Made by a program: the position numbers and the translations under genes. This document shows positions 25,787 to 53,443 of a DNA stretch of 64,000 nucleotides, piece after piece (the first letter of the stretch is position 1; each line of letters begins with the position of its first letter). Source of the DNA: an uncultured Flavobacteriaceae bacterium (lineage in GTDB: Bacteria > Bacteroidota > Bacteroidia > Flavobacteriales > Flavobacteriaceae); NCBI GenBank assembly GCA_947501845.1, contig CANMXP010000001.1, positions 434,001 to 498,000 on the forward strand, in the 5' to 3' direction. A model generated the notes under the pieces. It ran no database searches. It had not been told where the DNA came from and was given only the letters and a program-made list of their open reading frames with translations.

Positions 25787-25876
25787 CAAAAGTAGCTGCG
25801 ATTGACGTCTTTTCGGGGTGTAATTCGTTGGTTGGAAACGTTGTATAGACGAATGAAAATGTTACTTCGATAAATA
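25787..25876 (-). promoter_or_regulatory. 21-bp-phased direct-repeat site A with -7 box (GT2 promoter)
   Basis: Three half-sites spaced 21 bp: ATTCGTTGGTTG (25823), TATAGACGAATG (25844) and CTTCGATAAATA (25865). On the minus strand a perfect -7 element TACTTTTG is at 25787-25794, 50 bp from the strong half. The spacing fits LytTR regulators, which bind two 9-bp repeats about 12 bp apart. It may also serve the divergent gene at 25937. Confidence 0.65.
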
Positions 25877-28900: not shown

Positions 28901-29026
28901 ATTTCAAATAAAATAGTTCCGAATAGAATTAAAAACCATACGCATTCAAAACTACAATCCATAGCGCATCTAAATTATAAGTTTATAAAAATTGAAATAA
29001 ACAGTTACATCGGAAACCCCAATTAA
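25937..29026 (+). CDS. Large polytopic membrane protein, GT-C glycosyltransferase-like, with soluble C-terminus
   Basis: A 1029-residue protein. Residues 1-400 contain about ten transmembrane helices, with an early loop bearing TYDALIHLFF and conserved acidic/aromatic residues (WFEPWNYKWYTGF) as in lipid-linked-sugar GT-C enzymes. A soluble domain follows (about 405-540), then helices near 555-575 and 610-630, and a long C-terminal part (640-1029) whose start resembles an NTF2-like fold and whose end is beta-rich. It is the first gene of a three-gene coupled set (TAATG overlap with the next). The specific family was not recognised; polysaccharide assembly is inferred from neighbours. Confidence 0.6.
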   Translation: MKEKSNKYLIAALLLGLAFHGTSIFFTLETTYDALIHLFFADHYANSWFEPWNYKWYTGFTVMSYPPLVHQAIAAFSFIGGLKFGLFTLAIISIILFITGVYRFALLMTSNKTAAGYAAILAVLSSSFVETLHVFGQLPSIIGISILMHALPEIYLWIKTGRYRYLLTALSLIAVTVTSHHVTPIFGMVFFIFPLIGMVIMDTSREQSESTKAITLKIFLRSFLKLFKRIVSFGMLSLVIIIGCILPYWINSKNNPITQVPIPHGSRDNFLEITSSGLVFFLIPWGILLILLPYIFYRYYSKRYLFFGLSITILFVLGTGGTTFIPKLVLGDTAFNILTLDRFTLWASIMSLPLFGEFAYRFAEGDLKTMIQTRFGAIYHRIIGAILAGLFIFMTIFTMSLGYFRPSQPQQIKMLPIVNFLNQDQHDQWRYMTLGFGDQMAWLSAQTNAMSVDGNYHSARRLPELTTRPIERLENSKFKGIEGIGSLQQFLTTPEKYHLKYIFSNDKFYDPILYFCGWQRLRQLENGIQVWEKLNIPPVPSILPKDDVAIWQKILWGIVPFLTVIIAFVLNIQLLWIRALKTKVRPIPEYLNFKNDYNYFSKGLLKATHIWSIFLAIVVCFGIYKFYIKNDVHHSPENTIIAYYDALDFKEFEKAHGLINPESNISIAQYMLEISVTDGLLSSYAKLDAIETIITHKTDSLATVKVHTNWITPLEKINKTDYKSLVKLNGKWFIQPDDIDLDLPPDQLYSDNVTNYFNQGRRRITTEQTHHEDVLKQPVLEVLSAKLIKYNNSYALIGEIQNIDNVPADVVLKGTLYNDANKELATFNAKYHVKHKLMPKEVSSFKINFEGIAWSKTQDSIPKTFNPDEFTPIELNEQPTKFNLQVAGNVSGSDLYKKATLSDLDISQDIISGKLFNSGLEEITIPQLLFTYYDANKNMIWVDHLFLETGIKQQRQQAFEHSFSKNNNILLISDDMKNCFVNGLPNEDISNKIVPNRIKNHTHSKLQSIAHLNYKFIKIEINSYIGNPN

Positions 29027-30237
29027 TGAGATTGAAATCTACATATCTACTTACACTAGCAATGCTATTATTATCATTCACAGTTTCTATAGAAACCGTA
29101 AAAATTAATGATACATTTAGATTGCTAACGCCTCAAACCGAGTTTGAAGCAGGTCATGATATTGTTTTGAAGTTTTCTGCCATGAACAGCTCCAAACCAA
29201 ATTTATATTTAAGCAACAGCTATGGTTCTATAATTATTAAGCCCGTTCGTAGTAGAAGCTTATTAAGTTACCAACTCCCTAAATCATTTAGTAATAAAGC
29301 GGGAGTTGTTAACTGGAAACTATTAAATAGTACCCTCGCTGGTAAATTAAATATACATCCAAAACAAGATGTAGCATCTATGGAAACCTATTTAGGTCCT
29401 CCAAGTATAGAAGCAGGAGAAACCGATTATACGATGCTTGTTGTTATTCCCACCGATATTTATGATAATCCCTTAAAAGATAGTACTCAGGTTTCAATAA
29501 AACATCAATTTTCAGCAAACGAAAGACAAGATAGTATTTATATGAAAAATAACATCAGTTACAAAAACATATACTCCAAAACTAAAACAGGAAGAATACT
29601 TATTAGCTCGGAATCTTTAAATAAAAACTCAAAAGAATATGATGTTAACATCTTACCAGCTATTCCAACCGATTTTACCATAACATATAATCGTAACCAT
29701 GAGTATACCGATGGCAATCAAATAACAAACTTTTCAACCTCTATAATAAAGGACAAGTATGATAATATTGTTAGTGATGGTACCTATGTAGATTTTTTAA
29801 TAACCAATGCTTCTAACTATCAGCTTAAAACGTCTGGTAGTACAGTAAATGGTATCGCAACAGCTAAAATGATCCATCCAGACCACCAGGACAATTGGAC
29901 AGTTAAAGCCTTCATTGAAGGATTATCAGAAAGCAACAGTATATCAATAACTTACAATCAGTCTGTTGAAGATTTTGAGGTTGCTTTTTCCGAAAGAAAC
30001 AGAATAGTATCCATTGGTCCTTTAAAAAGTTTCATGGGACAAATGATTCCTGATGGTTTAGAAGTAAAACTACATATTTACCAAAACCATATAAAAATTA
30101 AAACACTTTATAAAGATTCATTTTCTGGCTATGCTAACTTTAATATGAATCCTGATAATTTCCCAGATAATATATATACTTTTAAAATAGAAGCTGCAGG
30201 TATAAAAAAAACGTACCAAAATATAAAACTATGGTAA
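29026..30237 (+). CDS. Secreted beta-sandwich (Ig-like) hypothetical protein
   Basis: A 403-residue exported protein with a signal peptide (about 1-22) and a body of repeated beta-rich segments that look like two or three Ig-like or invasin-type modules, e.g. PPSIEAGETDYTMLVVIPTD and a DKYDNIVSDGTYVDF segment typical of Big-type domains. Its start overlaps the stop of the GT-C-like gene and its end overlaps the GH5-like gene by 7 bp, implying translational coupling. It could bind or present the polysaccharide made by this locus. No enzymatic motif was seen. Confidence 0.65.
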   Translation: MRLKSTYLLTLAMLLLSFTVSIETVKINDTFRLLTPQTEFEAGHDIVLKFSAMNSSKPNLYLSNSYGSIIIKPVRSRSLLSYQLPKSFSNKAGVVNWKLLNSTLAGKLNIHPKQDVASMETYLGPPSIEAGETDYTMLVVIPTDIYDNPLKDSTQVSIKHQFSANERQDSIYMKNNISYKNIYSKTKTGRILISSESLNKNSKEYDVNILPAIPTDFTITYNRNHEYTDGNQITNFSTSIIKDKYDNIVSDGTYVDFLITNASNYQLKTSGSTVNGIATAKMIHPDHQDNWTVKAFIEGLSESNSISITYNQSVEDFEVAFSERNRIVSIGPLKSFMGQMIPDGLEVKLHIYQNHIKIKTLYKDSFSGYANFNMNPDNFPDNIYTFKIEAAGIKKTYQNIKLW

Positions 30238-31748
30238 GTATCAACAGGCACATACTGCGTATTATTTTAATGCTTTCTTATATAGCAGTTATCGCTTTGG
30301 TAATCTTTGGGGTTAGTAGTTTATATAGCTATCTTAACACTGGTGCCGATAGAAGTTCTATGTTGCATACAGAAATTAAAAAAGTGGATCAGTATCTACC
30401 TAAAATAGTATGGGCTCCTTTAAATAATGAAGGGCGACCTATGGATGAACAGACCCTAAACACTATTGAAAATGATTATTTGGATGCTTGGTATGTAAAA
30501 CACATGGCTTACAAAACCAATAAGACCAATGGTATTGATGATTATTATACTGAAAGTGCCCGTGAAAATATTTTCAATATCATAGAACACAATACCACCA
30601 AAAACATCACTATTGAAGGAACAACTTTAGAACATCACCCTATCCTAGAGTTCTTTAGTGAAGATGGTCAACTTGTAGTGATAACCGATAAGGACGTTAT
30701 TGAATACAAACGCCTTTATGAAAATGAAAACATTGTTTTAGAAACCAAAGAAAAATCGACTTACAAAATTATTTTACTATTAGAAGATGGGTTTTGGCGT
30801 ATTAGGCATATCATAAAAAAAGAGACTCAGAATTATAGTGAAGATACTGTTGCCGTTTCCAATAAAACAATAACAATAAAAGGTATTAATTACTATCCGC
30901 AAGCTACGCCCTGGAATATGTTTGGTAATGCATTTAATACGGATATTATTTCAAAAGATTTAAAGCTTATTAAAGAAGCTGGACTCAATAGTATTCGAAT
31001 TTTTGTGCCTTATGTTGATTTCGGAAAAGCAAATGTGGACGCTAAAAAAACAGAAAAGCTTATCCAAGTACTAGATCTCGCTGAAGCACAAGAATTAAAA
31101 GTGGTAGTAACATTATTTGATTTTTATGGTGATTATTCGGTATTGGACTGGACTTTAAATCAACGTCATGCAGAAACCATCGTCACTGCCCTAAAAAAAC
31201 ACAATGCCTTGTTAGCATGGGATATTAAAAACGAACCTAATTTAGATTTTGAATCTCGCGGACAACAACAGGTGCTTGCCTGGTTAGACTACATGGCAGA
31301 TTTAGTAAAATCTATTGATAGAAAACACCCAGTTACCATTGGTTGGTCTGATGCAAAAAGTGCCATACTTCTAAAGGATAAATTAGACCTAATTACTTTC
31401 CACTATTATGAAGATTTAAATGATTTAGAAAAGACCTATGAAAATTTAAAACTAGAAATACCTAAGAAACCTATTATAATCACCGAATTTGGAATGTCTT
31501 CTTATAAAGGCTTTTGGAATCCTTTTGGTAATTCCGAAAGCAAACAAGCATCATATCACAAACAAGCGCAAAGTATTTTCAGCAAAAATGAGATGTCATT
31601 TATGTCTTGGACACTTTATGATTTTACTAAAATACCAAAGGAAGTCGTTGGACGGCTTCCTTGGCACAAACGGGTTCAAGAACATTTCGGGTTTATAAAC
31701 CAAAAGGGAGAGACTAAGCCCGCTTTCGAATATATATCTAAGCAATAA
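30231..31748 (+). CDS. Membrane-anchored glycoside hydrolase, family 5-like
   Basis: A 505-residue protein with one N-terminal transmembrane helix (about 10-35), a spacer domain, and a TIM-barrel glycosidase from about 205. The acid/base is E335 in WDIKNEPN and the nucleophile E419 in IITEFGMS, the GH5/clan GH-A pair. It is the third gene of a coupled set. Hydrolases in exopolysaccharide clusters often trim or release the polymer at the membrane, which fits the anchor. Its 3' end overlaps the convergent GT4 gene by 11 bp. Confidence 0.82.
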   Translation: MVSINRHILRIILMLSYIAVIALVIFGVSSLYSYLNTGADRSSMLHTEIKKVDQYLPKIVWAPLNNEGRPMDEQTLNTIENDYLDAWYVKHMAYKTNKTNGIDDYYTESARENIFNIIEHNTTKNITIEGTTLEHHPILEFFSEDGQLVVITDKDVIEYKRLYENENIVLETKEKSTYKIILLLEDGFWRIRHIIKKETQNYSEDTVAVSNKTITIKGINYYPQATPWNMFGNAFNTDIISKDLKLIKEAGLNSIRIFVPYVDFGKANVDAKKTEKLIQVLDLAEAQELKVVVTLFDFYGDYSVLDWTLNQRHAETIVTALKKHNALLAWDIKNEPNLDFESRGQQQVLAWLDYMADLVKSIDRKHPVTIGWSDAKSAILLKDKLDLITFHYYEDLNDLEKTYENLKLEIPKKPIIITEFGMSSYKGFWNPFGNSESKQASYHKQAQSIFSKNEMSFMSWTLYDFTKIPKEVVGRLPWHKRVQEHFGFINQKGETKPAFEYISKQ

Positions 31749-32952
31749 CTTGTTCTTTTTGCAATGTTTCTCTTTTCTTTTGTAGGATGATAGACTGAAA
31801 TACATTAATGTACATATTGGTTATTCTAGACATTGGGTACGCTGTAGCGGCTCTATAATTAGCTCTTTCCAATTCTACTCTATAAGCATTATTTTCAAGG
31901 ATTTTCTGAATAGCCAAGGCCAAACTACTTACACTTGTTGGTTCGAAAAACTCACCTCTGTAACCTTCGTCTTTAACCAATAAAGCTAAATCTCCTAAAT
32001 CTGGCATCACAACTGCTTTACCATAACTTCCTGCTTGATGCAAAACACCAGAGCTTCCTGTTGTAGACGTATAAGGAAATACCACAAGCGCACTCTCTTT
32101 GAACAATTTTGGTACGTCCTGTTCTTCAACATAACCCGTAAAAGTTAATCCTTCTACATGGCTGTAAGCCTTTTTTACCGACTCTAAATACCCTGGTGTA
32201 TTAGGATTATCTGTTCCAGCTATAACGACTTCTAAATTTAGATTTGAATACGCTTTGATATGCTCTACAGCTTCAATTAATGTTTCTACTTTTTTATAGG
32301 TTCCAAATTTCCCAAAAGCCATCACTTTAAATGGTTTTAAAGGAACATTAAAACTTGGTTCTTCAAGAATTTCAAATGTACCATGCGGTATCAGTTTTAC
32401 ATTTTTAGCATTATACTTTGCTTCTAAAACATCTACATATTTCTGCATGGTAACCGCAACAACATCTGCTTTAAGTATTAATTTGGTTAAAGTAGATCCT
32501 ATAAATCCATATACCTTTTGCATAATTTTATTAGATGTAAAACCTGCACTACCTAGATCTACTTCCTCCAAAATATTGTGTAACAAAGCTATTGTTGGGA
32601 TTCTTTTTAGTCTGCACACCAAGGGTAGCATTAAACCCAAAGCTGCCGCTATTTTTTTATCGCCAAACTTCATAAACTGTAAATTAAACAGCACAGAATC
32701 TGGTTTTGTTTGGTTAATCGCCTTAGTTACACTAAAAATGTTAGTATAGCTATTAAAGGTCCAACATTCCTTTATTGTTACTTTACATCCAGCTTCTGTA
32801 AATTCAATATCTTTTTTGCCTTCAGTGGTGTCTGTTAACAATACAAGTTCTGTTATATTTTCTCTTTGTCTAAAGTGTTTTACTAAATGATATGCATATT
32901 CATTTAAAGTGACTTTACTTGGCGGATATGCTGTTACTATTGCTAATTTCAT
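31738..32952 (-). CDS. Family 4 glycosyltransferase
   Basis: A 404-residue GT-B enzyme. The C-terminal half has the donor-binding region YTSTTGSSGVLHQAGSYGKA and the GEFFEPTSVSSL segment of the GT4 family. The N-terminal half carries the acceptor-side TAYPPSKVTLNEYAYHL loop. It is a cytosolic peripheral enzyme that likely adds a sugar during polymer assembly. Its promoter carries direct-repeat site B. Confidence 0.85.
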   Translation of the reverse strand: MKLAIVTAYPPSKVTLNEYAYHLVKHFRQRENITELVLLTDTTEGKKDIEFTEAGCKVTIKECWTFNSYTNIFSVTKAINQTKPDSVLFNLQFMKFGDKKIAAALGLMLPLVCRLKRIPTIALLHNILEEVDLGSAGFTSNKIMQKVYGFIGSTLTKLILKADVVAVTMQKYVDVLEAKYNAKNVKLIPHGTFEILEEPSFNVPLKPFKVMAFGKFGTYKKVETLIEAVEHIKAYSNLNLEVVIAGTDNPNTPGYLESVKKAYSHVEGLTFTGYVEEQDVPKLFKESALVVFPYTSTTGSSGVLHQAGSYGKAVVMPDLGDLALLVKDEGYRGEFFEPTSVSSLALAIQKILENNAYRVELERANYRAATAYPMSRITNMYINVFQSIILQKKRETLQKEQVIA

Positions 32953-32977: not shown

Positions 32978-33047
32978 TAAAATTGCAGCTTTTATATCCT
33001 AAAAAGATGTGGTTATAGATAGGCTGACACTTACTGTAGACGAATGG
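32978..33047 (-). promoter_or_regulatory. 21-bp-phased direct-repeat site B with -7-like box (GT4 promoter)
   Basis: Left half TATAGATAGG (33014) and right half TGTAGACGAATGG (33035-33047), 21 bp apart. A weak -7-like box CAATTTTA (32978-32985, minus strand) is at exactly the same 50-bp distance as in site A, and both right halves are 83 bp from the start codon. Confidence 0.6.
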
Positions 33048-33260: not shown

Positions 33261-34505
33261 CTATAGGGTCCTTTTATTATCTAACCTGAAGAATATAAAT
33301 TGTATGATTAGCAATAAAATCATAGCTAAAATCTGCATATATACAACTTGTTCTAAACTATTGTGATAAAAGATTACCAATACCATTTGAAGCATTCCAA
33401 ATACACCAGATATAATAACTGGTATGTATTTATCTAAAGACAAATAGTAGTATGCAAATATGTTAGAAATGGCAAACATACTTGTGGCAATGGCATATTT
33501 CCATAAAAGTGGTGCCATGGCTATATAATGCTCACCAAATAATAGCTTAATAATTGTTTCTGGAAAACTTAAACATGCTAAAACGATAATCATTGAAATA
33601 GCTGCTATATACCCTATGTACTTAAGCAATATAGATGTTGTTTCCTTACCCTCTTTTTTAAGTTGTACTACAGTTGGCAACAATAACATGACAAACATCC
33701 AGGCTATAAAATAGACAATACGTCCTATTAAAGCTAAGGAAGCATATAAACCTGCTTCGTAAGATTCAAAGTAATGTTTTACCAAAAGGATATCACTGTT
33801 ATTGATAATAATTTGAGTTAATTCATAAAATGCTGTCAATATAAAAAAGTGTCTCACTTGCTTTGCCTGTAAAATAGGCATTAATGATTTCGATTTAAAG
33901 TTGATTGACTTAGTTTTAAAGGGTATTAAACCAAATATAAAAGAGATTAAAATACCTATGGCTATAATGACCGAAGATTGTATGTTTAATAAAAAGATGA
34001 AACCCAAAGTGAATAGCAAACGACTCAACATTTCAGATTGATAAGTAATCGACAATGCCTTGAATGCCTTTTTTCCTTGAAACACACCTCTATTCACACT
34101 CATTAAAAAGTATAATGGTACACCACAACCAAATATTACAAACATACTTGATGAAGAAGTATTAAATAATTGCTGTAATTGGGTAGCAAATCCAACAATT
34201 AATACTCCCATGATGATACCAATGGCTAAGGCATTTTTGTAAATTTTTGAAATAAAGCTTTTGAATAATTGGTTTTCAAATAGTACCGAAAACTTTGCCG
34301 TCACTAGCTGAAATGTCATCGCTACAAAAGACAGCACCAATAAAAAAGTTATTAATACAGCTGCATCTGCAAATTCTGCTGGCCCCAACAAACGACCAAG
34401 AATTAGATTGTACAAATAATTCCCACCATTTACAGCCAGAACACTAATCATAAACAACTGCTCTGGAGAGATTCTTTTTTTGATTTTATTTACTATCGTA
34501 ATCAT
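33261..34505 (-). CDS. Polysaccharide flippase, Wzx/MOP superfamily
   Basis: A 414-residue protein with about 12 transmembrane helices, an N-terminal NGGNYLYNLILGRLLGPAEF segment and later AGLYASLALIGR, both typical of O-antigen/exopolysaccharide flippases of the MOP superfamily. It moves lipid-linked oligosaccharide across the inner membrane. It overlaps the STAS gene upstream by 20 bp and is the third gene of a STAS-STAS-flippase unit under site C. Confidence 0.85.
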   Translation of the reverse strand: MITIVNKIKKRISPEQLFMISVLAVNGGNYLYNLILGRLLGPAEFADAAVLITFLLVLSFVAMTFQLVTAKFSVLFENQLFKSFISKIYKNALAIGIIMGVLIVGFATQLQQLFNTSSSSMFVIFGCGVPLYFLMSVNRGVFQGKKAFKALSITYQSEMLSRLLFTLGFIFLLNIQSSVIIAIGILISFIFGLIPFKTKSINFKSKSLMPILQAKQVRHFFILTAFYELTQIIINNSDILLVKHYFESYEAGLYASLALIGRIVYFIAWMFVMLLLPTVVQLKKEGKETTSILLKYIGYIAAISMIIVLACLSFPETIIKLLFGEHYIAMAPLLWKYAIATSMFAISNIFAYYYLSLDKYIPVIISGVFGMLQMVLVIFYHNSLEQVVYMQILAMILLLIIQFIFFRLDNKRTL

Positions 34506-34794
34506 TTCTAAATATGTTAGTTAAATCATGCTTCCTAAACTCTTTATTAACACAACTATTATCTTTACCCAAAACAAATAATACCTTACTACGTCTTTTT
34601 GCCTTGGCTGCAATAAATTGCATGACATTTAAAGCTGCGCAATCTATATGTTTTACTTGTTTAAGACATATCACGATCTCATAATACCTATCTAATAAAT
34701 TGTTAAAATAATTAGCAACTTGATTGGCATGTACATTTGTAAAATCACCGTGTATTTCAAAAATGCCTCTGTTATTTATTATTTCGAAGTTCAT
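34486..34794 (-). CDS. STAS-domain protein lacking the phosphorylatable residue
   Basis: A 102-residue single STAS domain of the anti-anti-sigma type. At the loop where SpoIIAA-like proteins have D-S-S-G, it reads HIDCAALNVM, with cysteine in the position of the regulatory serine, so classical phosphorylation by a kinase is unlikely. It overlaps the flippase start by 20 bp and follows a second STAS gene by 32 bp. It probably acts as a protein-interaction partner in exopolysaccharide control. Confidence 0.75.
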   Translation of the reverse strand: MNFEIINNRGIFEIHGDFTNVHANQVANYFNNLLDRYYEIVICLKQVKHIDCAALNVMQFIAAKAKRRSKVLFVLGKDNSCVNKEFRKHDLTNIFRNDYDSK

Positions 34795-34826: not shown

Positions 34827-35105
34827 TTATGCTGCATCTGTAAACATGAAGTCTTCATATATTTCTTTACAACCAGTACCAATTATATAAAATGGTCTAT
34901 TATAAATTAGAGCATTGCTATAAAGTGCTCTTAAAGCATGCATACCATTAGTATCAATTTCTGTAACGTTTTCAATATCTATAGTTAGAGTTCCATACGT
35001 ATTTAAAATAGCTTCTAAATGATTTTGAAAATTCATTGCTGTAGAAGCGTTAATAGTTCCTTCTACTAAAAAAGTTCTGTTTTGTTCTGTAATTTTAAGT
35101 GCCAT
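34827..35105 (-). CDS. STAS-domain protein with phosphorylatable threonine
   Basis: A 92-residue STAS domain whose key loop is TEIDTNGMHALRAL; the threonine after the aspartate is at the SpoIIAA Ser58 position and could be phosphorylated. No anti-sigma kinase or PP2C phosphatase lies in the window, so its partners are elsewhere. It is the first gene of the STAS-STAS-flippase unit, directly behind LytTR-type site C. Confidence 0.78.
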   Translation of the reverse strand: MALKITEQNRTFLVEGTINASTAMNFQNHLEAILNTYGTLTIDIENVTEIDTNGMHALRALYSNALIYNRPFYIIGTGCKEIYEDFMFTDAA

Positions 35106-35145: not shown

Positions 35146-35214
35146 TAAAGATGCTACGTAATCCTTAAAATTATCGACCAAGTTCGGTGAGTTGCAGTTT
35201 GCTGTAGGTGAATG
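35146..35214 (-). promoter_or_regulatory. 21-bp-phased direct-repeat site C with -7-like box (STAS operon)
   Basis: Left half GTTCGGTGAGTT (35182) and right half TGTAGGTGAATG (35203-35214), 21 bp apart with 8 of 12 bases equal. The -7-like box CATCTTTA (35146-35153, minus strand) is 50 bp from the right half, as in sites A, B and E. The divergent TPR gene starts 43 bp on the other side. Confidence 0.6.
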
Positions 35215-35256
35215 ATTGAAATCTATTGCTTAACTTGCAAGTACTAAAAATCGCTC

Positions 35257-37332
35257 ATGAATTTTAAGCCTTATCTAATCTCAATACTCCTACTCTTTTG
35301 CGTATTTGGCGGATCGCAGAACATGCAAGAAGGTTTTACCTATCTGGAAACTGGTCAATATGAAGCTGCCGAAACATATTTTAAAACTGTTTTGAAAGAC
35401 CATCCTGAGAATAAAACCGCCAAATTATGTTACGGACGTGCTGTAGGTTTAAATGGAAATTCTGAAGAAGCAGTTACCATATTTACCGACTTACTAAAGA
35501 CCTATCCTAACGATTTTGAAATTAAACTGAATTATGCAGAATCGTTGCTCTGGAATAAAAACTACAATAAAGCTAAAAGCTATTATAAAAATCTTATCAA
35601 AGAAAATAAGCTTAGTTTCCCTGCTCTTTTAGGCTATGCCAATACGCTATCCAATCTTAAAATATATGAAACCGCTTTAGTATATGTTAATAAAGCTTTG
35701 GAAGTATCTCCTAACAATCAAAACGCTTTAATCTCTAAAAAATATATCTATTTAGGCTATGCTTATCAAAACCAACAGCAACAAAACTATATGGAAGCTG
35801 AACGGCTTTTAAAAGAAAACTTAGCCTTATTTAAAAATGACAAAGAAACTTTAGTCAACTTAGCTAATCTCTATTTAATCATGGCAACTTACGATAAGGC
35901 TGAAAAGACGTACAAAACTTTAGGTAACTATGATACTCATAAAACAACCTCATTAAACGGACTTGCTCTTGTAAACCATTTAAAAGGTAAAGACAAAATT
36001 GCTTTAAAAATTAGTGAAGAAGCTTTTAATACTATACCAAATTTAAAAGACAGCACTACTATAAAACAAACTAAAGAACGGCATATTCAAGCCCTAATTT
36101 GGAATAAGAAATACAAAAAAGCCCATACACTAATAGATAAATTGGTAGAAAGTATACCAAACTCTAATTGGGTTCTGGCCTTAAGAGCTACTTTAAACAC
36201 CTATAAAAGTGATTTTAAAAAAGGGCTCGTTGATTACAATCGCATTTTAGAAAACGATAGCACATCATTTGATGGCAATCTGGGAAAAGCTAACACTTTA
36301 AAAGCTTTAGGACAGTATGAGGAGGCGTATCATTCCGCTAACAATACACTTCGTTTTTACGAAAAACAAAAGGATGCTACCCAGTTTATAAAAAACCTAA
36401 ACATGCGTTTTACACCTTTTTTAGAAACCAAAGGAACTTACTCTTTTGATAATGGGGATAATGAAGCCTATGCTTTTAATATGAATTTAGAACTCCCAAC
36501 CTCAACAAAATTTAAATGGTTAGCGAGTTACGGATATCGAACCACCAAAAATACAGTCACAAATAACAAAGCAACATCTAATAATGCATCATTGGGACTG
36601 GCTTATCAATTTTTACCCAACATAACTTTTAAAGGAACTGCTGGTGTTACTGCTGCTAAAGCCCAAACTGATGATTACACACAATTACTAACAGATCTGT
36701 CGTTTAACATCAAAACCTTTAAATTACAGGTTTTAGATATTGGCTATAAAAGGGAGATTCAAAGTTTTAATGCCGATTTATTAGACCGTGAAATCGTTAT
36801 GAATCATTTTTATGCCAATTATAACCTCAGTACCAATTTTAATCTGGGTTGGTTTACGCAGTACTACTACACCTCACAAAACGACGATAATACCAGAAAT
36901 CTATTATTTACCTCATTATACTACAACATATTGAGCAGACCAGCTTTGAAAGCTGGTTTTAACTACCAATACATCACTTTTAAAAACCAGGTGCCAACCA
37001 TTTATTTTAGTCCAGAGCGATTTAATGCGACCGAAATTTTTATTAACCTAATAAAAGATGAAGTCATAACAGAATCCAAGGAATGGTTCTATGAGCTAAC
37101 GGCTGCTACTGGTTATCAATTTATTGAAAGTAATACAAAACAAAGTACTTACCGTATACAGGGAAAATTGGGCTATAGATTTTGTAAGCAGACTTTATTA
37201 AATGTTTACGGCACCCGAAGTAATATCGCTTCTACTACAGCTGCTGGATTTACGTTTACGGAAATTGGTGTGAGGTTTAGATGGTATTTTATGAAAAAAG
37301 CCTATTGGTACACAAAAAAAGGCAAAAGTTAA
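35257..37332 (+). CDS. TPR protein with C-terminal outer-membrane beta barrel (YaiO/BcsC-like)
   Basis: A 691-residue exported protein. After a signal peptide (1-20), TPR-type helical repeats run to about residue 390 (e.g. YLETGQYEAAETYFKTVL). The C-terminal 300 residues are alternating-hydrophobicity strands with aromatic girdles, and the protein ends near the WYFMKKAYW segment, consistent with a YaiO-like barrel. The TPR-plus-barrel layout is that of polysaccharide exporters such as PgaA, BcsC and AlgKE. It is likely the outer-membrane exit for the polymer of this locus. Confidence 0.78.
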   Translation: MNFKPYLISILLLFCVFGGSQNMQEGFTYLETGQYEAAETYFKTVLKDHPENKTAKLCYGRAVGLNGNSEEAVTIFTDLLKTYPNDFEIKLNYAESLLWNKNYNKAKSYYKNLIKENKLSFPALLGYANTLSNLKIYETALVYVNKALEVSPNNQNALISKKYIYLGYAYQNQQQQNYMEAERLLKENLALFKNDKETLVNLANLYLIMATYDKAEKTYKTLGNYDTHKTTSLNGLALVNHLKGKDKIALKISEEAFNTIPNLKDSTTIKQTKERHIQALIWNKKYKKAHTLIDKLVESIPNSNWVLALRATLNTYKSDFKKGLVDYNRILENDSTSFDGNLGKANTLKALGQYEEAYHSANNTLRFYEKQKDATQFIKNLNMRFTPFLETKGTYSFDNGDNEAYAFNMNLELPTSTKFKWLASYGYRTTKNTVTNNKATSNNASLGLAYQFLPNITFKGTAGVTAAKAQTDDYTQLLTDLSFNIKTFKLQVLDIGYKREIQSFNADLLDREIVMNHFYANYNLSTNFNLGWFTQYYYTSQNDDNTRNLLFTSLYYNILSRPALKAGFNYQYITFKNQVPTIYFSPERFNATEIFINLIKDEVITESKEWFYELTAATGYQFIESNTKQSTYRIQGKLGYRFCKQTLLNVYGTRSNIASTTAAGFTFTEIGVRFRWYFMKKAYWYTKKGKS

Positions 37333-39112: not shown

Positions 39113-41692
39113 TTACTTTACAAGTAATTTTATGGTTTTATAAGTCGTCGTTTTACTTTTTAAATTACAGAAATACAATCCAGAACTTAAATCCATGCCA
39201 TCCAGTTTTATTTTGTTATCTCCCTTATTGGCTTCATGTGCCAATACTTTTACCGCAACTCCCAATTGATTGTAAACTAACAAATCAACTTTTTCTGAAT
39301 TCTGACTTGTAAAATGAATCGTTGTACTTGCTCCCATAGGGTTTGGAGAAGCGAATGTTTTATACAACTCATCACCATGCAATGGTTCTACTGAAAGTGT
39401 ACTACTTGTTGAAAAGCGCAATTGTTGCAAGGTCATTTCCTTAGTCTCAATCTCACCTGTTTCAGCTAGCATGGTAAACACAATAGAAGTTATATCATGG
39501 GTTTCAAAATCTCGACCATTAATAGACGTAAATTCAGAAAACGGAATACTATAATCTTGTAATTCGTTAATTAAAACTATACTGGTTTTATATTGTTCTT
39601 CCCAGTTACTTACATGTTCCTTAACCAATCTAATAATTAAAGTTCCTGTGCCTTTGGCTTTAAACTGAAAGCTAGTATAAGCCGATAAATCTATAGGATT
39701 AAACTTTGGTGTCAAGGCTCTATAAGCTGCTATATATTCACTTGTATTAGCTACCAACTTGATATTACGTTCTATTGGAAATTCATCTTCATTAAATACC
39801 TCTTCGTTAGGTTCTACAGTATAAGTGTTTACAACGGTACTTGGCGCGGCATCATCGTATCCCCAAGGACCATCGGACATAAATAAATCATCAGGTGTTT
39901 GTATGCCATCTCCAATTCTAAATCCGATATCAAACAAGTTTCCTGCATCCACTTCTACATTCGTAATATAATTACCATATAAATCTATGGTTGACGAAAC
40001 ATACGCTACAGTATTGGTTTCTGTGGCTCGCAATCCACCATCAAACTTAACGGCTTCACTCCTATTGGTGTTTACAATTTGTAATTCCAATTTTCCGTGA
40101 TGATACTTGCCTTTTCTAACAAAAACCGTTGGGGGTGTTGAATTGTTATAACTGGTCACTGGTTTTTGAACATCTAATAATCTTACAACTTCTTCACCAA
40201 GACGTAATAAATCATCTAAAGAATTAGACCATATTTGGAAATTATAAAATGACACGTTGCTTTCATATTTATCTAAATTCCAATGACTTTCAATTCCGAA
40301 GTTAGTATTATCATTTATCGATTTTGCAGACAAACTCAATACAAATTCCAAAGAGCCATCTATATTTCTAATTAAAGCTTTTATAAATTTTTGCTCTTTT
40401 ATTTCTATGGTTGATACTGAAATTAACTCCGCACCTAATAACCTATCACAAATATATTTAGTGTGTTCGTAAACCCCTTTATCGGTTTTAAGAACAAGAA
40501 TTGATGCTACAGCTTCGTCTGCTTTCATATAATCTACCGAATAAATGTCCGTGGCATTCGTGATGTTTAACAAATCTGTTGGAGACGACTCTATAACATG
40601 ATCTTCATTTAAAATTTCTAGTGGGACGAAATCTGATAATTGTAATCCTTTTTTACTCGTTTTTTTACCATATTTAGCTGATTTTGTAAATCGTTTTGCT
40701 GACACTTTATCAAATTTGTAATTGTTTTTAGCACGATCAAAGTTTCTTTTATTAATCTGCTCAGACAATCTGTTGTTACTTTCTAAACCTCCTGAATTAG
40801 CAGTAGATGTTGGTGCTTCTATAACAGGACAAGCAGCATAACCAGAACATGAAGGGTCTTCACAGTCTATTAAACCGTCACCATCATCATCAATACCATT
40901 GGTACAATCTTCTTGTGGTACTGGTGCTGTTGGGCAACGCGCTCCATCATTTTGAGAACTCGAAGGCCCAAAAGCAAATAGGTTAGAATCCATATTGTTC
41001 GTTCCTTCTAAATCCTGAACATTTTTTATGACATAAATCGTTCCTGTTTGATTTGCCGATACATAAAAACGTCCAGATGCATCAAAATAAACAGCACCAT
41101 ACGTATAGTTTAAACCAGATAAGATTGGGACTTCTCCTAAACTTTCTATGGAACCGCTATCTGCATTTATACGATATAAAATATTGGTTTTCTTTTCTAC
41201 GGTGTATAATTTACCATCTACAGCATTAAATGCCCAATCGTGGATGCTTAAACTTTTTGATAAATTTTTTGTTGCAATATAACCTCCATAGTTATCGGAA
41301 TCTGGATTTAAATCTATAGCATAATATGGTGTTCCTCCTGCTTTTAAATAATAGATTCCTTCGGCACTAATATCTCCAACATACCTTCCGTTGGTAGGCA
41401 ACTCGTCTATATAAAACGTAAGGGTTGAGAAATCTTTCCCTATCCTTACAATAGATTTTGACGGGTAGCTTAACGACCCCCAAATAAACCCATCTGTTGG
41501 GTTATATGCTGCTGCGTTAATAGTGCCTTCTGTTACATCTGTTGCAACTGTATATGAATTGCCCGAGGCCAAATCTATAGCATATACATCATTGTACTGA
41601 AACAAGTAGGCATTATAATCGCAATTAAACGGGATGTCTTGCGTGTACACATTTACATAAACGAACACAAGTAATAGTAATATTTTCTTCAT
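39113..41692 (-). CDS. T9SS-secreted multidomain protein (PQQ/SMP-like N-term, type A sorting domain)
   Basis: About 859 residues from the start at 41692, chosen because MKKILLLLVFVYVN is a standard signal and because a perfect -7 box TAGCTTTG (41713-41720) would otherwise overlap the coding start. Residues 20-270 have repeated propeller-like segments resembling SMP-30/NHL surface proteins. The motif NGIDDDGDGLIDCEDPSC (near 275-290) is the MopE/calcium-type linker. The C-terminus has the T9SS type A sorting signature (FASPNPMGASTTIHFTS ... GLYFCNLKS). The protein is probably displayed on or released from the cell surface, fitting an adhesin or matrix role. Its promoter has site D. Confidence 0.82.
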   Translation of the reverse strand: MKKILLLLVFVYVNVYTQDIPFNCDYNAYLFQYNDVYAIDLASGNSYTVATDVTEGTINAAAYNPTDGFIWGSLSYPSKSIVRIGKDFSTLTFYIDELPTNGRYVGDISAEGIYYLKAGGTPYYAIDLNPDSDNYGGYIATKNLSKSLSIHDWAFNAVDGKLYTVEKKTNILYRINADSGSIESLGEVPILSGLNYTYGAVYFDASGRFYVSANQTGTIYVIKNVQDLEGTNNMDSNLFAFGPSSSQNDGARCPTAPVPQEDCTNGIDDDGDGLIDCEDPSCSGYAACPVIEAPTSTANSGGLESNNRLSEQINKRNFDRAKNNYKFDKVSAKRFTKSAKYGKKTSKKGLQLSDFVPLEILNEDHVIESSPTDLLNITNATDIYSVDYMKADEAVASILVLKTDKGVYEHTKYICDRLLGAELISVSTIEIKEQKFIKALIRNIDGSLEFVLSLSAKSINDNTNFGIESHWNLDKYESNVSFYNFQIWSNSLDDLLRLGEEVVRLLDVQKPVTSYNNSTPPTVFVRKGKYHHGKLELQIVNTNRSEAVKFDGGLRATETNTVAYVSSTIDLYGNYITNVEVDAGNLFDIGFRIGDGIQTPDDLFMSDGPWGYDDAAPSTVVNTYTVEPNEEVFNEDEFPIERNIKLVANTSEYIAAYRALTPKFNPIDLSAYTSFQFKAKGTGTLIIRLVKEHVSNWEEQYKTSIVLINELQDYSIPFSEFTSINGRDFETHDITSIVFTMLAETGEIETKEMTLQQLRFSTSSTLSVEPLHGDELYKTFASPNPMGASTTIHFTSQNSEKVDLLVYNQLGVAVKVLAHEANKGDNKIKLDGMDLSSGLYFCNLKSKTTTYKTIKLLVK

Positions 41693-41712
41693 GATATTTA
41701 GATTTAATACCA

Positions 41713-41780
41713 CAAAGCTATATGATCATAAGTGTTTAATTTTTAATTTTCGGTAGACGAAAATTAAGTGTAGATGAATG
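41713..41780 (-). promoter_or_regulatory. 21-bp-phased direct-repeat site D with -7 box (T9SS gene)
   Basis: Left half TTTCGGTAGA (41748) and right half TGTAGATGAATG (41769-41780), 21 bp apart. A perfect -7 element TAGCTTTG (41713-41720, minus strand) is 49 bp from the right half. A further AAATTAAGGTTAAATGA at 41787 resembles the right half but is out of phase. Confidence 0.68.
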
Positions 41781-41935
41781 GGAGTAAATTAAGGTTAAAT
41801 GATTTTGGGATAAATTAAATGAACTAGTACTATTATCTAAACAAAATTCAGAAGTCATGTCGAACGACTTGTGTTCAGCTTAGTCTAAATAAAGAAGAAA
41901 CCACTACAGAAGAATAATCTATTATTACCTAAAAC

Positions 41936-42649
41936 TCACAACAAGTTCAACCGTTTCATCAACTCAGGTCTGTTAGAGCGACTTACGGGAATAACATCTT
42001 TTTTTATTAGGACACTGTTATCTTCAATGTCAATGATTTTTTTAATATTGATTATGTAGGATCGATGAACTTTAAGGAATAATGAATCCGGTAGTTTTTC
42101 CTCAATCTTTTTTAGAGTTGAATGCACTGTATAATTTTTCTCTTCAGTTTTTACATTGATATAATCGCCTTTGGCTTCAATAAGATAAATACTGGGGATG
42201 TCTAGCTTTATTAAACGTCTGTCTATATTTATATACAAATCGTTACCTGAAGTTGTTTCTACAGCATCTGTTGGCGTTGAGTTTTCGACCATTTTAGACG
42301 TGGTAGCTTCTGCTTTTTGTATCGCTTTTTCAAAACGTGGTAAAGTAATTGGCTTTACTAAATAATCTACAATACAATCGTACTCAAATGCTTCAATAGC
42401 AAAATTAACATCCGAAGTCGTTAAAACTATTTTAGGTGGATTTTTAAGTGTTTGAATAAAATCAAAACCTGTAAAATCTGGCATATGTATATCTAGAAAA
42501 ATGAGTTCTACATCATTCTGATTTAAGTATTTAATGGCTTCAATGGCATTGGGGAACTCTTCGAGAACATTTAAACTTGAAATATTAGAACATAACTGAG
42601 AGATAATTGCCCTAGCTGTAGCTTCGTCATCAATAATAATACAATTCAT
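41936..42649 (-). CDS. LytTR-family response regulator
   Basis: A 237-residue protein. Residues 1-120 are a receiver with the phosphorylation site D53 in FLDIHMPD; about 140-235 is a LytTR DNA-binding domain with EAKGDYINVKT, FLKVHRSYIIN and VIPVSRSNRPEL. It is the last gene of a five-gene signalling operon. LytTR proteins bind direct repeats near 21-22 bp, matching the element before five transcription units in this window, including its own operon. It is therefore the obvious candidate regulator of that set. Confidence 0.9.
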   Translation of the reverse strand: MNCIIIDDEATARAIISQLCSNISSLNVLEEFPNAIEAIKYLNQNDVELIFLDIHMPDFTGFDFIQTLKNPPKIVLTTSDVNFAIEAFEYDCIVDYLVKPITLPRFEKAIQKAEATTSKMVENSTPTDAVETTSGNDLYINIDRRLIKLDIPSIYLIEAKGDYINVKTEEKNYTVHSTLKKIEEKLPDSLFLKVHRSYIINIKKIIDIEDNSVLIKKDVIPVSRSNRPELMKRLNLL

Positions 42650-42658
42650 AAAAAATGA

Positions 42659-42979
42659 TTATAAGGTATTTATGAAATCTGTTATGAGTTGTAAAATAAT
42701 ATCGAAATCTTTTCTGCCTTCGGTACTACCTGCTTTTAAATTATTTTCATAATCGACAGCTACCCAATAACTTTTTTCAAGTCCTAAAATACTAATTTTA
42801 TGTTTAAGTTTGTGTACATTTTCTGAAGCTTTATTAAAATCATCAGAATTTATGTTCGCATAATATATTTTTTTTTCTTCTGGAAATTCGGCTTTAATAA
42901 TAGCTACAAGCTTCTTTTCAAAGGCCTTATCCCCTCCAGACATACTATGGATATAAGATAAATTTGGCTGCTCCATCAT
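42659..42979 (-). CDS. HPt phosphotransfer protein
   Basis: A 106-residue all-helical protein with VHKLKHKISILGL containing the candidate phosphoacceptor H56, the HPt pattern. It is separated from the PAS-kinase gene by 1 bp and from the LytTR regulator by 9 bp. It most likely carries phosphate from the receiver of a relay to the LytTR protein, or buffers between the two receivers of the operon. The residue after the lysine differs from the usual glycine, so the relay chemistry should be viewed as probable, not certain. Confidence 0.82.
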   Translation of the reverse strand: MMEQPNLSYIHSMSGGDKAFEKKLVAIIKAEFPEEKKIYYANINSDDFNKASENVHKLKHKISILGLEKSYWVAVDYENNLKAGSTEGRKDFDIILQLITDFINTL

Positions 42980-42980
42980 G

Positions 42981-44195
42981 CTATTTTTTTAATGTAAAAA
43001 AGAACGTCGTACCTTTTCCAGGTTCACTTTCCAACCAAATGTCGCCATCGTGTAAATCGACAATCTTTTTAACAATAGAAAGCCCTATACCTGTAGAGTT
43101 TTTACTCTCGTTTAACGTATGGAAAATTTTAAATATTTTTTTGTGATACTGTTTATCTATTCCCATACCATTATCTTTTACAGAAAACTGATAATGATTT
43201 TTTAGCGCTTTACATTCAATCTCAATAAGCCCCTTATCTTTATCTATAAACTTAATGGCATTACTTATTAAATTTTGAAATAACTGCTGCAATTTTGTTT
43301 TATAGCCTTTTACCGTTGGTAATGGGTTTAAAATGTTAATGGAGATATGCTCTGGAACGTAAAGTATTTTTATTAAATCTTTAATCACACCTCCTAAATC
43401 AACATCTATTTTCTCATTCTCTTCAGAACCTATACTCGAGTAACTTAACACATCCGATATGAGTTGCTCCATCTTTTCCAGCGTAGTCTCTATAAGGGTG
43501 AAATTTTGCAGACTAGCAGTATCCAGTTTTCCTTCATTATCTTCCTTAATCCAGCTAACAAGGGCATTAATACTCCTTAATGGTGATTTTAAATCGTGAG
43601 ATACAATGTGTGCATATTCCTGTAATTCATCATTACTTTTAGCTAGCTTTCTTTTTTGTTCTTCTATTAAGGAGGCTGTTCGTTTTGCATCAGTAATATC
43701 TCTTATAATACCTTGTGCAGCTATAGGCATCTTCTTTTTATCATATATAACGCTCGCATTTATGTGTACCCATTTGATACTTTTGCTTTTAGTAATAATT
43801 CTAGCTGTATAATCTGTAAATGCTCCCTTTTTTCTTAACTCCTTGAACGATTTAAACGCATAATTAGCATCTGGTTTATAAATAAGATTTATTACATTTA
43901 ATTTTTCCTTACTTATATCATAACCAAATAGATCGATGGCTGCATCATTCATTTTTAAGGCATTACCTTCTAGGTCCATTATTAAATAAGCATCATTAAT
44001 ATTTTCAAAAACACCTTGTAATTGCGATGTTTTTTCTTCTAGAAGCAGCTCCAATTTTTCATTGGCTTCCTTTAATTTTTGAGCCGTATTATATAGCTCT
44101 AACGATTTTTCTTCCAGTATTTTTTCTGCTGCTTTCCTAGCGGATTTTTCTCTTTTAAGAGCACGTTGAAGTATGTCAATGTTATCTTGACTCAT
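42981..44195 (-). CDS. Soluble PAS histidine kinase with H-NOX-associated coiled coil
   Basis: A 404-residue cytosolic kinase. Residues 1-58 are a highly charged coiled coil (LQRALKREKSARKAAEK...), like those that follow H-NOX in NO-signalling proteins. A PAS domain follows (about 60-170). The phosphoacceptor is H200 in HIVSHDLKSPLRS, and the ATPase domain includes NLISNAIKF and GIGLSIVKKIV. It overlaps the H-NOX gene by 1 bp. No transmembrane helix is present, so sensing is likely through the H-NOX partner and the PAS domain. Confidence 0.87.
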   Translation of the reverse strand: MSQDNIDILQRALKREKSARKAAEKILEEKSLELYNTAQKLKEANEKLELLLEEKTSQLQGVFENINDAYLIMDLEGNALKMNDAAIDLFGYDISKEKLNVINLIYKPDANYAFKSFKELRKKGAFTDYTARIITKSKSIKWVHINASVIYDKKKMPIAAQGIIRDITDAKRTASLIEEQKRKLAKSNDELQEYAHIVSHDLKSPLRSINALVSWIKEDNEGKLDTASLQNFTLIETTLEKMEQLISDVLSYSSIGSEENEKIDVDLGGVIKDLIKILYVPEHISINILNPLPTVKGYKTKLQQLFQNLISNAIKFIDKDKGLIEIECKALKNHYQFSVKDNGMGIDKQYHKKIFKIFHTLNESKNSTGIGLSIVKKIVDLHDGDIWLESEPGKGTTFFFTLKK

Positions 44196-44734
44196 TAATT
44201 TTTGTTAATGATAAACTTAACTTCTGTTCCATCATCCTTAATCTTCTCTAAAACGATTGAAGCTGTAGAATTAAAATGTTCAAACGTTTTGTTCATTAAA
44301 CCCAAACCAAAATGATGCATAGCTCTACTGGATTTATAAACCATGATTAGCGAATTATCTGTTTTTTCTTCTACTACAAAAGTTGGCAATTCAGCATCAG
44401 GATAAATTTTTCTAACTTCTACATGGATATGATTTTCAATAGATGCCAGCATATCTATAGGGTCTTTATACATCCCCATAAGATCTGGGTAACTTGCTTT
44501 TAAAACACTAAAGAAATGTTCTGCATAAACAAGTAACAGATCATCAATAGAAATATTGGTGTTGGCGCTTAAGCTTTTAAGAAGCTGCAACATTTCAGAA
44601 AATTTGTAAGTCCCAACCGATGTATAAACACCTTCTGATTCTAATTCTGATTGTGAAATTATAGTATCAACCATCTCCAGACCAAACTTATCTTCTACTA
44701 GATCTAAAAACTCTGTAAAAACAATTCCTTTCAT
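44195..44734 (-). CDS. H-NOX haem nitric-oxide sensor
   Basis: A 179-residue stand-alone H-NOX domain starting MKGIVFTEFLDLVEDKFG. The proximal ligand is H102 (in ENHIHVEV) and the propionate-binding triad is Y133-x-S135-x-R137 (YKSSR), the same layout as in Thermoanaerobacter H-NOX (H102, Y131, S133, R135). A distal-pocket tyrosine typical of O2-binding members was not identified, consistent with an NO sensor. It overlaps the kinase gene by 1 bp. H-NOX proteins elsewhere inhibit a partner kinase when NO binds and control biofilm. Confidence 0.9.
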   Translation of the reverse strand: MKGIVFTEFLDLVEDKFGLEMVDTIISQSELESEGVYTSVGTYKFSEMLQLLKSLSANTNISIDDLLLVYAEHFFSVLKASYPDLMGMYKDPIDMLASIENHIHVEVRKIYPDAELPTFVVEEKTDNSLIMVYKSSRAMHHFGLGLMNKTFEHFNSTASIVLEKIKDDGTEVKFIINKN

Positions 44735-44738
44735 GTAT

Positions 44739-45155
44739 TTAAATTTTTATTAATTCGTTAATACTCCAATAGGCCAACAAGTTTTTTATTTTCGTCACAT
44801 AATCTTCATATTTTAAAGGCTTTAAAACATAGCCAGCAATTCCAAGTTTATAACATTCCAACAAATCTTTTTGGTTATTAGACGTTGTTAATATGATTGC
44901 AGGAATATGTTGTAAGTTTTTATCCTTTTTTAAAATGGACAAAAATTCCATACCATTAATTTTTGGCATGTTTAAATCTAATAAAATTATGTCAGGTAAT
45001 TCGTCTTTTTTCTTTAAAATATTTAAAGCTTCATCTCCATTATGAGCCTCTACGATATTATACTTGGACTCTAAAGACGCTACAACTCTATTGAATTTCA
45101 TAATTTCAATCATATCATCCTCGATAAGAAGAACTTTTAAATTATTTTTCATCAT
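44739..45155 (-). CDS. Single-domain receiver (CheY-like)
   Basis: A 138-residue receiver with D60 in LLDLNMP and the ALK-type TTSNNQKDLLECYKLGIAGYVLKP end. It has no output domain. As the first gene of the operon, before H-NOX, it probably works as the intermediate receiver of the relay or acts by protein contact. Site E lies in front of it. Confidence 0.87.
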   Translation of the reverse strand: MMKNNLKVLLIEDDMIEIMKFNRVVASLESKYNIVEAHNGDEALNILKKKDELPDIILLDLNMPKINGMEFLSILKKDKNLQHIPAIILTTSNNQKDLLECYKLGIAGYVLKPLKYEDYVTKIKNLLAYWSINELIKI

Positions 45156-45172
45156 ATAAGTTTAAGTAGATG

Positions 45173-45263
45173 TAAAAATAATGCAATAGAGAGGATATGA
45201 CTATTTTGCTTCGCTAGAGTGAATTTAAGTGTAGGTGAATAGCAATTAAGTGTCGACGAATGG
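45173..45263 (-). promoter_or_regulatory. 21-bp-phased triple direct-repeat site E (signalling operon)
   Basis: Three half-sites at 21-bp steps: CTTCGCTAGAG (45209), TGTAGGTGAATAG (45230) and TGTCGACGAATGG (45251). A -7-like box TATTTTTA (45173-45180, minus strand) lies 50 bp from the middle half. It is the richest copy of the element and precedes the operon that encodes the candidate LytTR regulator, suggesting autoregulation. Confidence 0.65.
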
Positions 45264-45350
45264 TTTTACAATTTTAAAGTTAATACTTTTTTTAAATAAG
45301 AACTGGTGTAATTTTTTAGCAAACACTAGAGAATACTTACTTTTGAAATT

Positions 45351-50773: not shown

Positions 50774-50820
50774 TTACAACTGTGTTTTACACGAATTAAA
50801 GCATTATTTTTATTGAAAAC

Positions 50821-50861
50821 AAGGCTTGCCTTAATTATTGGCAATACCCTAAAAAAGCCTT
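50821..50861 (-). promoter_or_regulatory. Leader stem-loop upstream of the nasC-type gene
   Basis: AAGGCTT (50821-50827) pairs with AAGCCTT (50855-50861), and inside it TTGCC (50826-50830) could alternatively pair with GGCAA (50840-50844). The transcript leader lies 48 nt before the start codon. Mutually exclusive pairings are compatible with attenuation, but no T run follows, so this is uncertain. Confidence 0.4.
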
Positions 50862-50930
50862 TTTAAATCATTAAATTGATAAAAATAGGTATACTAAATA
50901 CATAATTTAATTTCTCTTAAAATCTTTGAT

Positions 50931-50989
50931 TTGTTATTCCTGCGCTACTGAAGAAACAGACCAGTATTTTTATATTGCAGGAATAACAA
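50931..50989. repeat. Nested inverted repeat between narK and nasC genes
   Basis: A perfect 13-bp outer repeat TTGTTATTCCTGC (50931-50943) / GCAGGAATAACAA (50977-50989), with an inner TACTG (50946-50950) / CAGTA (50962-50966). The structure would form a long hairpin in either strand. It lacks an ORF and resembles a small interspersed palindromic element. Confidence 0.6.
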
Positions 50990-51001
50990 TCACAAAGAAA
51001 A

Positions 51002-51023: not shown

Positions 51024-51030
51024 AATATTT

Positions 51031-52467: not shown

Positions 52468-52489
52468 AACTACGTATTTTAATTTGACA

Positions 52490-53409: not shown

Positions 53410-53443
53410 ACCCTAATATACTTGAATTTAAGTACAAAAATAA

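Follow-up and report, generated by a model that had tools for sequence, protein, structure and literature searches.

An H-NOX operon with a LytTR output that probably links nitric oxide sensing to neighbouring surface polysaccharide genes in Flavobacteriaceae

Introduction

What does a nitric oxide (NO) sensor control when its operon ends in a LytTR regulator? The question is raised by a 64,000-nucleotide stretch of DNA from an uncultured Flavobacteriaceae bacterium (assembly GCA_947501845.1, contig CANMXP010000001.1, positions 434,001 to 498,000; hereafter the window), in which an H-NOX gene shares an operon with genes for a stand-alone receiver (REC), a histidine kinase (HK), an HPt protein and a LytTR response regulator (LYT). 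What is known of NO control over the biofilm matrix comes mainly from work on Proteobacteria, where it runs via cyclic di-GMP (c-di-GMP). Judging from gene content, promoter sites and linkage, the flavobacterial relay probably senses NO and switches on neighbouring surface polysaccharide genes, an arrangement that recurs across many genera. We read the locus as an NO-gated, autoregulated phosphorelay that would activate a local polysaccharide regulon, and give this reading a probability of roughly 0.7.

Results

The five genes and their products

The five open reading frames (ORFs) lie head to tail on the minus strand from 45155 to 41936, with gaps of at most 9 bp. The first gene, REC (44739..45155, 138 aa), encodes a stand-alone receiver (Response_reg 1e-23) with the phospho-acceptor D60. 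It is followed by the H-NOX sensor (44195..44734, 179 aa; HNOB 4.5e-40); by HK (42981..44195, 404 aa), with an N-terminal coil and the Pfam domains PAS, HisKA (H200) and HATPase_c; by HPt (42659..42979, 106 aa), with the phosphotransfer residue H56; and by LYT (41936..42649, 237 aa; Response_reg and LytTR, 3.3e-21), in which Pfam and the orthologue alignment place both a receiver aspartate, D53, and a LytTR domain. Positions and Pfam matches agree with the original prediction of five tightly packed genes for a receiver, an H-NOX protein, a PAS kinase, an HPt protein and a LytTR regulator, the HPt match being weak. Pfam found no GGDEF, EAL or HD-GYP protein among the five products.

The acceptor residues are invariant among the aligned orthologues: H200 of HK in 100/100, D60 of REC in 101/101, H56 of HPt in 96/96 and D53 of LYT in 93/93. 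Against the Pfam Hpt model the window HPt reaches 20.2 bits (E 7e-4), under the cut-off of 24.6 bits; nevertheless 43 of the 60 family members scanned match at E≤0.01, and the AlphaFold model, a helical bundle (pLDDT 95.4), is matched best by HPt proteins in Foldseek (probability 1.00, E at least 0.048). Together with the invariant H56, these results uphold the HPt identity despite the weak Pfam match of the window protein itself. A kinase, a receiver, an HPt protein and an output response regulator are thus encoded together with intact acceptors, which is the gene content of a four-step phosphorelay, and the stand-alone receiver beside an HPt protein suggests the order HK to REC to HPt to LytTR.

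The sensor is a clear family member, with 137.7 bits against HNOB (PF07700; curated cut-off 25.5). Its proximal histidine is H104, the anticipated YxSxR triad is present as Y133-S135-R137, and the hinge columns hold A71 and G145; among the aligned H-NOX sequences H104 is kept in 100/101, Y133 and S135 each in 101/101 and R137 in 96/101. The haem ligand had earlier been placed at H102, and this had to be corrected: the ligand position aligns with H104, in a register that we take to be that of H105 in sGC, seven residues ahead of the conserved YP, and H102 is another conserved histidine. The best match in the PDB is 6bdd, the H-NOX of Kordia algicida (1.7e-100), which shares the Ala-Gly hinge letters; the closest relative, in a comparison from which records of the same genome were possibly excluded, is that of Flavivirga algicola (94% identity). 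An excerpt of PMC7356049 gives Kordia algicida H-NOX as the source of crystal structure 6BDD, and by analogy the window H-NOX would be expected to bind haem and NO. In the PDB, the Kordia algicida entries 6bdd and 6bde are labelled, under molecule name, as an unrelated aldolase.

Conservation of the operon and its FIST variant

Our sample comprised 299 genomes of Flavobacteriaceae, 105 of which have H-NOX; besides that of the window, 107 H-NOX matches were obtained and 100 of them fetched as loci. A search of other genomes for the five-gene order, proposed with the original prediction, found REC-HNOX-HK(s)-HPt-LYT in 89 of these 100 loci, while in the remaining 11 at least one gene is missing from the stretch, some of these loci ending at a contig edge. 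HPt was detected in 95 loci and LYT in 92. A second LYT-like gene stands behind LYT in L105 (genome G131), L099 (G024) and L104 (G087), with 70%, 47% and 40% identity to the window LYT, and Tamlana nanhaiensis has two H-NOX loci on one contig (L310 and L311, 79% identity), possibly a duplicated operon.

The commonest elaboration, present in 55/100 loci, is the insertion of a FIST protein (365-396 aa) together with a second kinase behind the first kinase. All 55 inserted proteins match the FIST protein of genome G248 (blastp, at least 28% identity), and FIST_N and FIST_C were found in 3/3 scanned. NosP was rejected as a name for them, since three such proteins score 56.9-67.3 bits against a NosP cut-off of 450. 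Among 80 named loci, which overlap the 100-locus set, the FIST form accounts for 46 and the five-gene form for 26, with the promoter site described below in 73/79; the locus of Kordia algicida OT-1 reads REC-HNOX-HK-FIST-HK-HPt-LYT and has that site. Within the genus of the window's bacterium, G248 has the FIST/second-kinase pair and the window operon and that of G019 do not; both of the latter genomes hold elsewhere a FIST protein 43% identical to that of the G248 operon, in the window's genome at G000:C24:32814-33863.

The kinases themselves bear on how the sensors could feed the relay. An N-terminal coil motif, derived from the H-NOX kinases themselves, occurs in 91/99 kinases of H-NOX operons, in 1/57 second kinases and in 0/6 kinases from operons without H-NOX, the last a small sample. 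Within one operon the first and second kinase have a median identity of 49% over the last 225 aa and of 24% in the N-terminus (56 pairs). Likeness in the catalytic part and not in the N-terminus is expected if one relay is fed by two sensors.

A tandem 21-bp site in the operon promoter

Genome and promoter scans place a tandem site in the operon's own promoter (45224..45264, minus strand), made of two half-sites at 21-bp spacing, the stronger of which is CCATTCGTCGACACTTAA. Scored by a consensus that comes from the sites of the window itself, with 22 of 28 matches as the bar, 65/99 operon promoters pass, compared with 0/1980 Markov-sampled sequences, and at any other period from 15 to 29 at most 7/99 do. 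A profile built from 43 operon-promoter sites, that of the window among them, finds the operon promoter as by far the best match in the 5.37-Mb genome (E 2.7e-12), so the earlier claim that the strongest copy of the 21-bp repeat lies in the operon's own promoter was confirmed. That scan, which scored 150 out of 2358 first-look candidates, gave ten matches at E≤10; the top four all lie in the window, in a 12.2-kb part of it, and only the first is strong alone. Scanning the same genome for single half-sites with 3 mismatches gave 95 hits versus 87 for a reversed-pattern control, no clear excess, and single half-sites elsewhere were therefore ignored.

The site model also separates genomes. At E≤0.01 it matches in 23/23 H-NOX genomes, of which 18 had supplied training sites and 5 had not, and most of the further matches follow the operon downstream and share its direction. 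Among 24 control genomes (22 tested LYT-negative; G352 and G460 H-NOX-negative only) a single genome gives a match, a weak one at E 0.004, and G157, the sole H-NOX-less genome scanned along with the 23, has none at E≤0.01. Tandem 21-bp geometry fits LytTR domains. By linkage and repeat geometry, the repeat is likely a LytTR-type tandem site and the predicted target of the operon's own regulator.

Sites before neighbouring polysaccharide genes

To count sites at gene starts we used 18 relatives and the window, a profile trained on operon promoters alone and a threshold of 15. Downstream of LYT most of these 19 genomes carry a gene for a protein secreted by the type IX secretion system (T9SS), a TPR porin gene, one or two STAS genes with a flippase gene, GT1, the GH2/P403/P1029 genes and GT2; G246 and G034 are without this polysaccharide neighbourhood. 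With the window included, sites precede the T9SS gene in 11/15, STAS1 in 11/14, GT1 in 10/15 and GT2 in 7/17 cases, some of the GT2 matches being other glycosyltransferases. The corresponding count for REC starts, 18/19, is circular, REC promoters having served to train the profile; the counts for the other genes are not. Flippase starts have a site in 2/17, both in genomes without a STAS call. No site was found at the starts of the TPR porin, P1029, H-NOX, HK, HPt, LYT, FIST, GH2 or P403 genes (0/147), nor in Markov sequences (0/3800). Of other ORFs 7/368 have one, and in five of these cases the ORF is an alternative polysaccharide gene of G246 or G034.

Operon and target promoters also share a geometry. 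Among the 51 target promoters whose half-site scores at least 14, 36 have a -7 box resembling TAnnTTTG (5 of 6 letters) 42-45 bp downstream, the usual distance being 43-44 bp (mononucleotide shuffles: mean 1.7, maximum 9), and so do 32/72 operon promoters (mean 2.9, maximum 9); the spacing was first seen in operon promoters and then tested in the targets. Such a shared arrangement would fit an activator sitting by the promoter.

In the window, the predicted targets follow the operon on the minus strand. The site before the T9SS gene (41743..41781) consists of a strong half (41764-41781) and a weak half, with a TAGCTTTG box 43 bp downstream that overlaps the GTG at 41713 chosen as start by the ORF caller; the ATG at 41692 is the likelier start of this gene (39113..41713), whose secreted product has DUF6923 and a T9SS sorting domain. 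A further site (35177..35215; score 14.7, just below the threshold) precedes a unit of STAS protein 1 (34827..35105), STAS protein 2 (34486..34794) and a Wzx-like polysaccharide flippase (33261..34505; Polysacc_synt_3). The next (33009..33047; strong half 33030-33047) stands before GT1, a family-1 glycosyltransferase (31738..32952). Last comes a weak site (25818..25856; half 25839-25856 scoring 12.5, TACTTTTG box at 44 bp) before GT2, a family-2 glycosyltransferase (24937..25761). On the plus strand lie P1029 (25937..29026), P403, another protein of the polysaccharide locus (29026..30237), a GH2/TIM-barrel-like protein of the same locus (30231..31748) and a TPR protein resembling export porins of the PgaA/BcsC type (35257..37332), the last under the curated cut-offs. 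P1029, which served as the locus marker, is probably a polytopic membrane protein whose C-terminal part is predicted to be beta; its AlphaFold model is of low confidence (mean pLDDT 51 with 14 rows) and its sequence has no match in the PDB. The T9SS gene is separated from the TPR porin gene by genes for a cNMP-binding-domain protein (38251-38829) and a 222-aa protein (37508-38176), a pair that among the printed neighbourhoods occurs at this place only in Flavivirga algicola (L243).

Linkage to the polysaccharide marker extends beyond these 19 genomes. P1029 was found in 76/299 genomes (one match partial), 69 of them with H-NOX; 7 have P1029 only, 36 H-NOX only and 187 neither. The corresponding figures for LYT and P1029 are 73/3/39/184 (both, P1029 only, LYT only, neither), tables that treat related genomes as independent. 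Of the 58 genomes with P1029 and H-NOX on one contig, 57 have them no more than 35 kb apart and one has them far apart; in 11 more they are on different contigs. The polysaccharide locus that had been noticed beside the operon is thereby upheld, and by sites and linkage it is now a likely regulatory target.

These data also bear on the idea that another regulator of the polysaccharide locus owns the 21-bp sites and that the LytTR operon is one more target. Since LytTR binding to the sites was inferred from linkage and geometry, such an owner is conceivable, but the strongest site lies mostly in the LytTR operon's own promoter in the 23 H-NOX genomes scanned, the site model matches in all of these and in 1/24 controls, the tandem geometry suits LytTR domains, and LYT and P1029 occur together as just given. 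We therefore judge a separate owner rather improbable.

Loci without H-NOX, with a divergent H-NOX or with a split operon

LYT orthologues (at least 57% identity) are present in 112/299 genomes, 99 of which have H-NOX. In the other 13, REC is found at E≤1e-20 in 7. In seven small loci without H-NOX the kinase follows REC directly, with no H-NOX between them, and 5/7 have sites scoring 26 to 43; in L365 LYT comes after the kinase without an intervening HPt, and L368 and L369 carry it on the other strand. In G227 LYT lies in the 4.2-Mb range away from the H-NOX operon, directly behind a second REC copy that is preceded by a tandem site, whereas the H-NOX operon of that genome has neither a site nor LYT. 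G448, from another family of the same class, has REC, an H-NOX of 82% identity and a site scoring 36.5. Seven loci of g127, a large genus of the Flavobacteriaceae (L339, L341, L342, L343, L348, L349 and L351, from six genomes), carry a divergent H-NOX (26-30% identity) in the usual slot after a REC of 67-70%, with sites scoring 32 to 49 in 4/7 loci and the proximal histidine kept in 6/6 checked; here the sensor may have been replaced, or may be evolving fast, while REC stays. From these loci REC and LYT therefore look more constant than the sensor, and H-NOX looks like a plug-in.

Several of our observations weigh against the proposed relay and its targets. As regards the route, 6 of the 13 LYT genomes without H-NOX show no REC, several of these six being incomplete assemblies, and HPt is visible in only one of the seven small loci (L368), most of which are too short to reach it. 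CheY-type phosphate sinks exist, and REC could be one. The same points would favour a branched route without a four-step relay, in which HK phosphorylates HPt or LytTR one way and REC is a separate output or a phosphate sink; the kinase itself contains no receiver, so direct transfer from HK to LytTR is possible, and the gene order of L365 would suit it. Against it stand the invariant HPt histidine (96/96), which makes most sense with an intermediate receiver, the co-occurrence of all five genes in 89/100 loci, and the LYT of G227, which is far from the H-NOX operon yet beside its own REC copy. We consider the branched route unlikely.

As regards the targets, the window has a clear -7-like box before the T9SS gene and GT2 but not before STAS1 or GT1; of its four non-operon sites three are weak genome-wide (E 0.006, 0.11 and 0.17), the GT2 site is outside the ten matches, and the STAS1 and GT2 sites, at 14.7 and 5.8, score under the threshold of 15. 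The co-occurrence tables carry the non-independence stated above. G227 (L191) has genes of the polysaccharide locus, and yet near them neither a site nor LYT was found. Thirty-six H-NOX genomes are without P1029, and several of 22 such regions have the operon site alone, no site, or sites before unrelated genes. Some other P1029-less regions do have sites before different polysaccharide genes, and the genes preceded by sites there are UDP-sugar dehydrogenase genes (G034 and G237), Wzc-like (GNVR, under its cut-off) and phosphoribosyltransferase genes (G034, G246 and G109) and genes for secreted DUF4842 or DUF4114 proteins (G109 and G237). Sites in G071 and G087 precede transposase- or isochorismatase-like genes, named by sequence reading, and were taken as chance or unexplained.

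Nitrate genes and the signal

The original prediction had also pointed to nitrate-reduction genes around the operon as a source of NO, and this part found no support. The window holds, at 45822-61965, a nitrate set of assimilatory look that includes a rubredoxin/NIR half-domain protein, an MFS transporter and a NirB-like protein; at 47252-50773 there is a fusion of NasC-like and NirB-like parts, and the NasC/NirB-type neighbours score below the curated cut-offs of those models. NirK, the nitrite reductase covered by our test (NirS and haem nitrite reductases were outside it), has no match in the window's genome, and it occurs in 15/105 genomes with H-NOX and 38/194 without (Fisher p 0.27), that is, with no association. 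Nitrate reduction as the NO source was accordingly rejected as unsupported. A PilJ-type kinase (53952-55766) and a LuxR-type regulator (52756-53409) in the same region are perhaps a nitrate sensor pair.

The missing NirK, its lack of association with H-NOX and the assimilatory look of the nitrate genes could also mean that H-NOX serves oxygen, CO or redox sensing and that the operon is no NO system in vivo; redox-sensing H-NOX proteins are discussed in the available part of PMC8738867. However, the close relationship to the crystallised Kordia algicida H-NOX (PMC7356049, seen as an excerpt) and the presence of FIST, the fold of NosP, in 55/100 of these operons speak for NO, and we think a non-NO function improbable.

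Discussion

Kordia algicida H-NOX, when NO-bound, reportedly inhibits its kinase. The route that we propose begins likewise: H-NOX would bind NO on haem and inhibit the PAS kinase via the kinase's N-terminal coil. In the absence of NO, phosphate would pass from H200 of HK to D60 of REC, H56 of HPt and D53 of LytTR. Phosphorylated LytTR would bind the tandem 21-bp sites, which lie close upstream of the promoter, and activate its own operon, the gene for the T9SS-secreted protein and the adjacent STAS/flippase/glycosyltransferase units, and in many relatives the FIST protein and the second kinase would feed the same relay. NO would lower the level of phosphorylated LytTR and matrix synthesis if the flavobacterial pair behaves like the Kordia algicida and Vibrio cholerae cases; in the latter, according to the accessible text of PMC6769237, VpsS is inhibited by NO-NosP.

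A broader proposal, which we hold tentatively at a little under even odds, is that of one modular matrix switch in much of the Flavobacteriaceae without a c-di-GMP step, with a kinase-REC-HPt-LytTR core, lineage-specific haem sensors of NO (H-NOX, FIST or both), a shared promoter grammar and exchangeable adjacent exopolysaccharide cargo. Were the narrower reading correct, a large marine family would gain a predicted path that leads all the way from NO to the transcription of polysaccharide genes and has defined promoters, a likely output would be assigned to the H-NOX crystallised from Kordia algicida, and the relatives would offer a natural series of sensors around one relay: none, H-NOX, H-NOX plus FIST, and divergent H-NOX.

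The general plan has a precedent in the Bacillus Spo0 phosphorelay, with its kinase, single-domain receiver, phosphotransferase and DNA-binding response regulator; the phosphotransferase is Spo0B there and HPt in the window relay, and the LytTR output is the window's. The H-NOX/HnoK system of Kordia algicida belongs to the same operon type, in its FIST form and with the promoter site. Hespen et al. 2018 are said to have dealt with its ligand binding and kinase control and not with a relay, a LytTR output or targets. The pairing of H-NOX with a kinase was already known; new here would be the LytTR output of an H-NOX operon and its likely targets. Our literature search, made on titles and the beginnings of abstracts, found neither an H-NOX with a LytTR output nor this promoter motif. 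PMC8738867, which describes kinase or c-di-GMP partners and, for one group of H-NOX, FIST genes nearby, contains neither the word LytTR nor the word HPt. H-NOX and LytTR both occur in PMC6769237 and PMC8396549, and in PMC6769237 LytTR is named for AgrA.

The Vibrio cholerae NosP/VpsS system resembles the FIST form in that a FIST haem sensor and a kinase feed an HPt protein (PMC6769237, in part), but the window operon is without FIST and the three FIST proteins scored from its relatives are far under the NosP cut-off. In the H-NOX/HnoK networks of Shewanella and Vibrio, too, H-NOX stands next to a cytosolic kinase and the output is to matrix or biofilm, and the Vibrio network also has HPt-type transfer (partial texts of PMC8738867 and PMC6769237). 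Those networks end in c-di-GMP or quorum sensing, and the HPt/LytTR output, described as unusual in the original prediction, is indeed unlike the c-di-GMP outputs in these sources: in the window the relay would end in a LytTR transcription factor encoded beside its likely polysaccharide targets.

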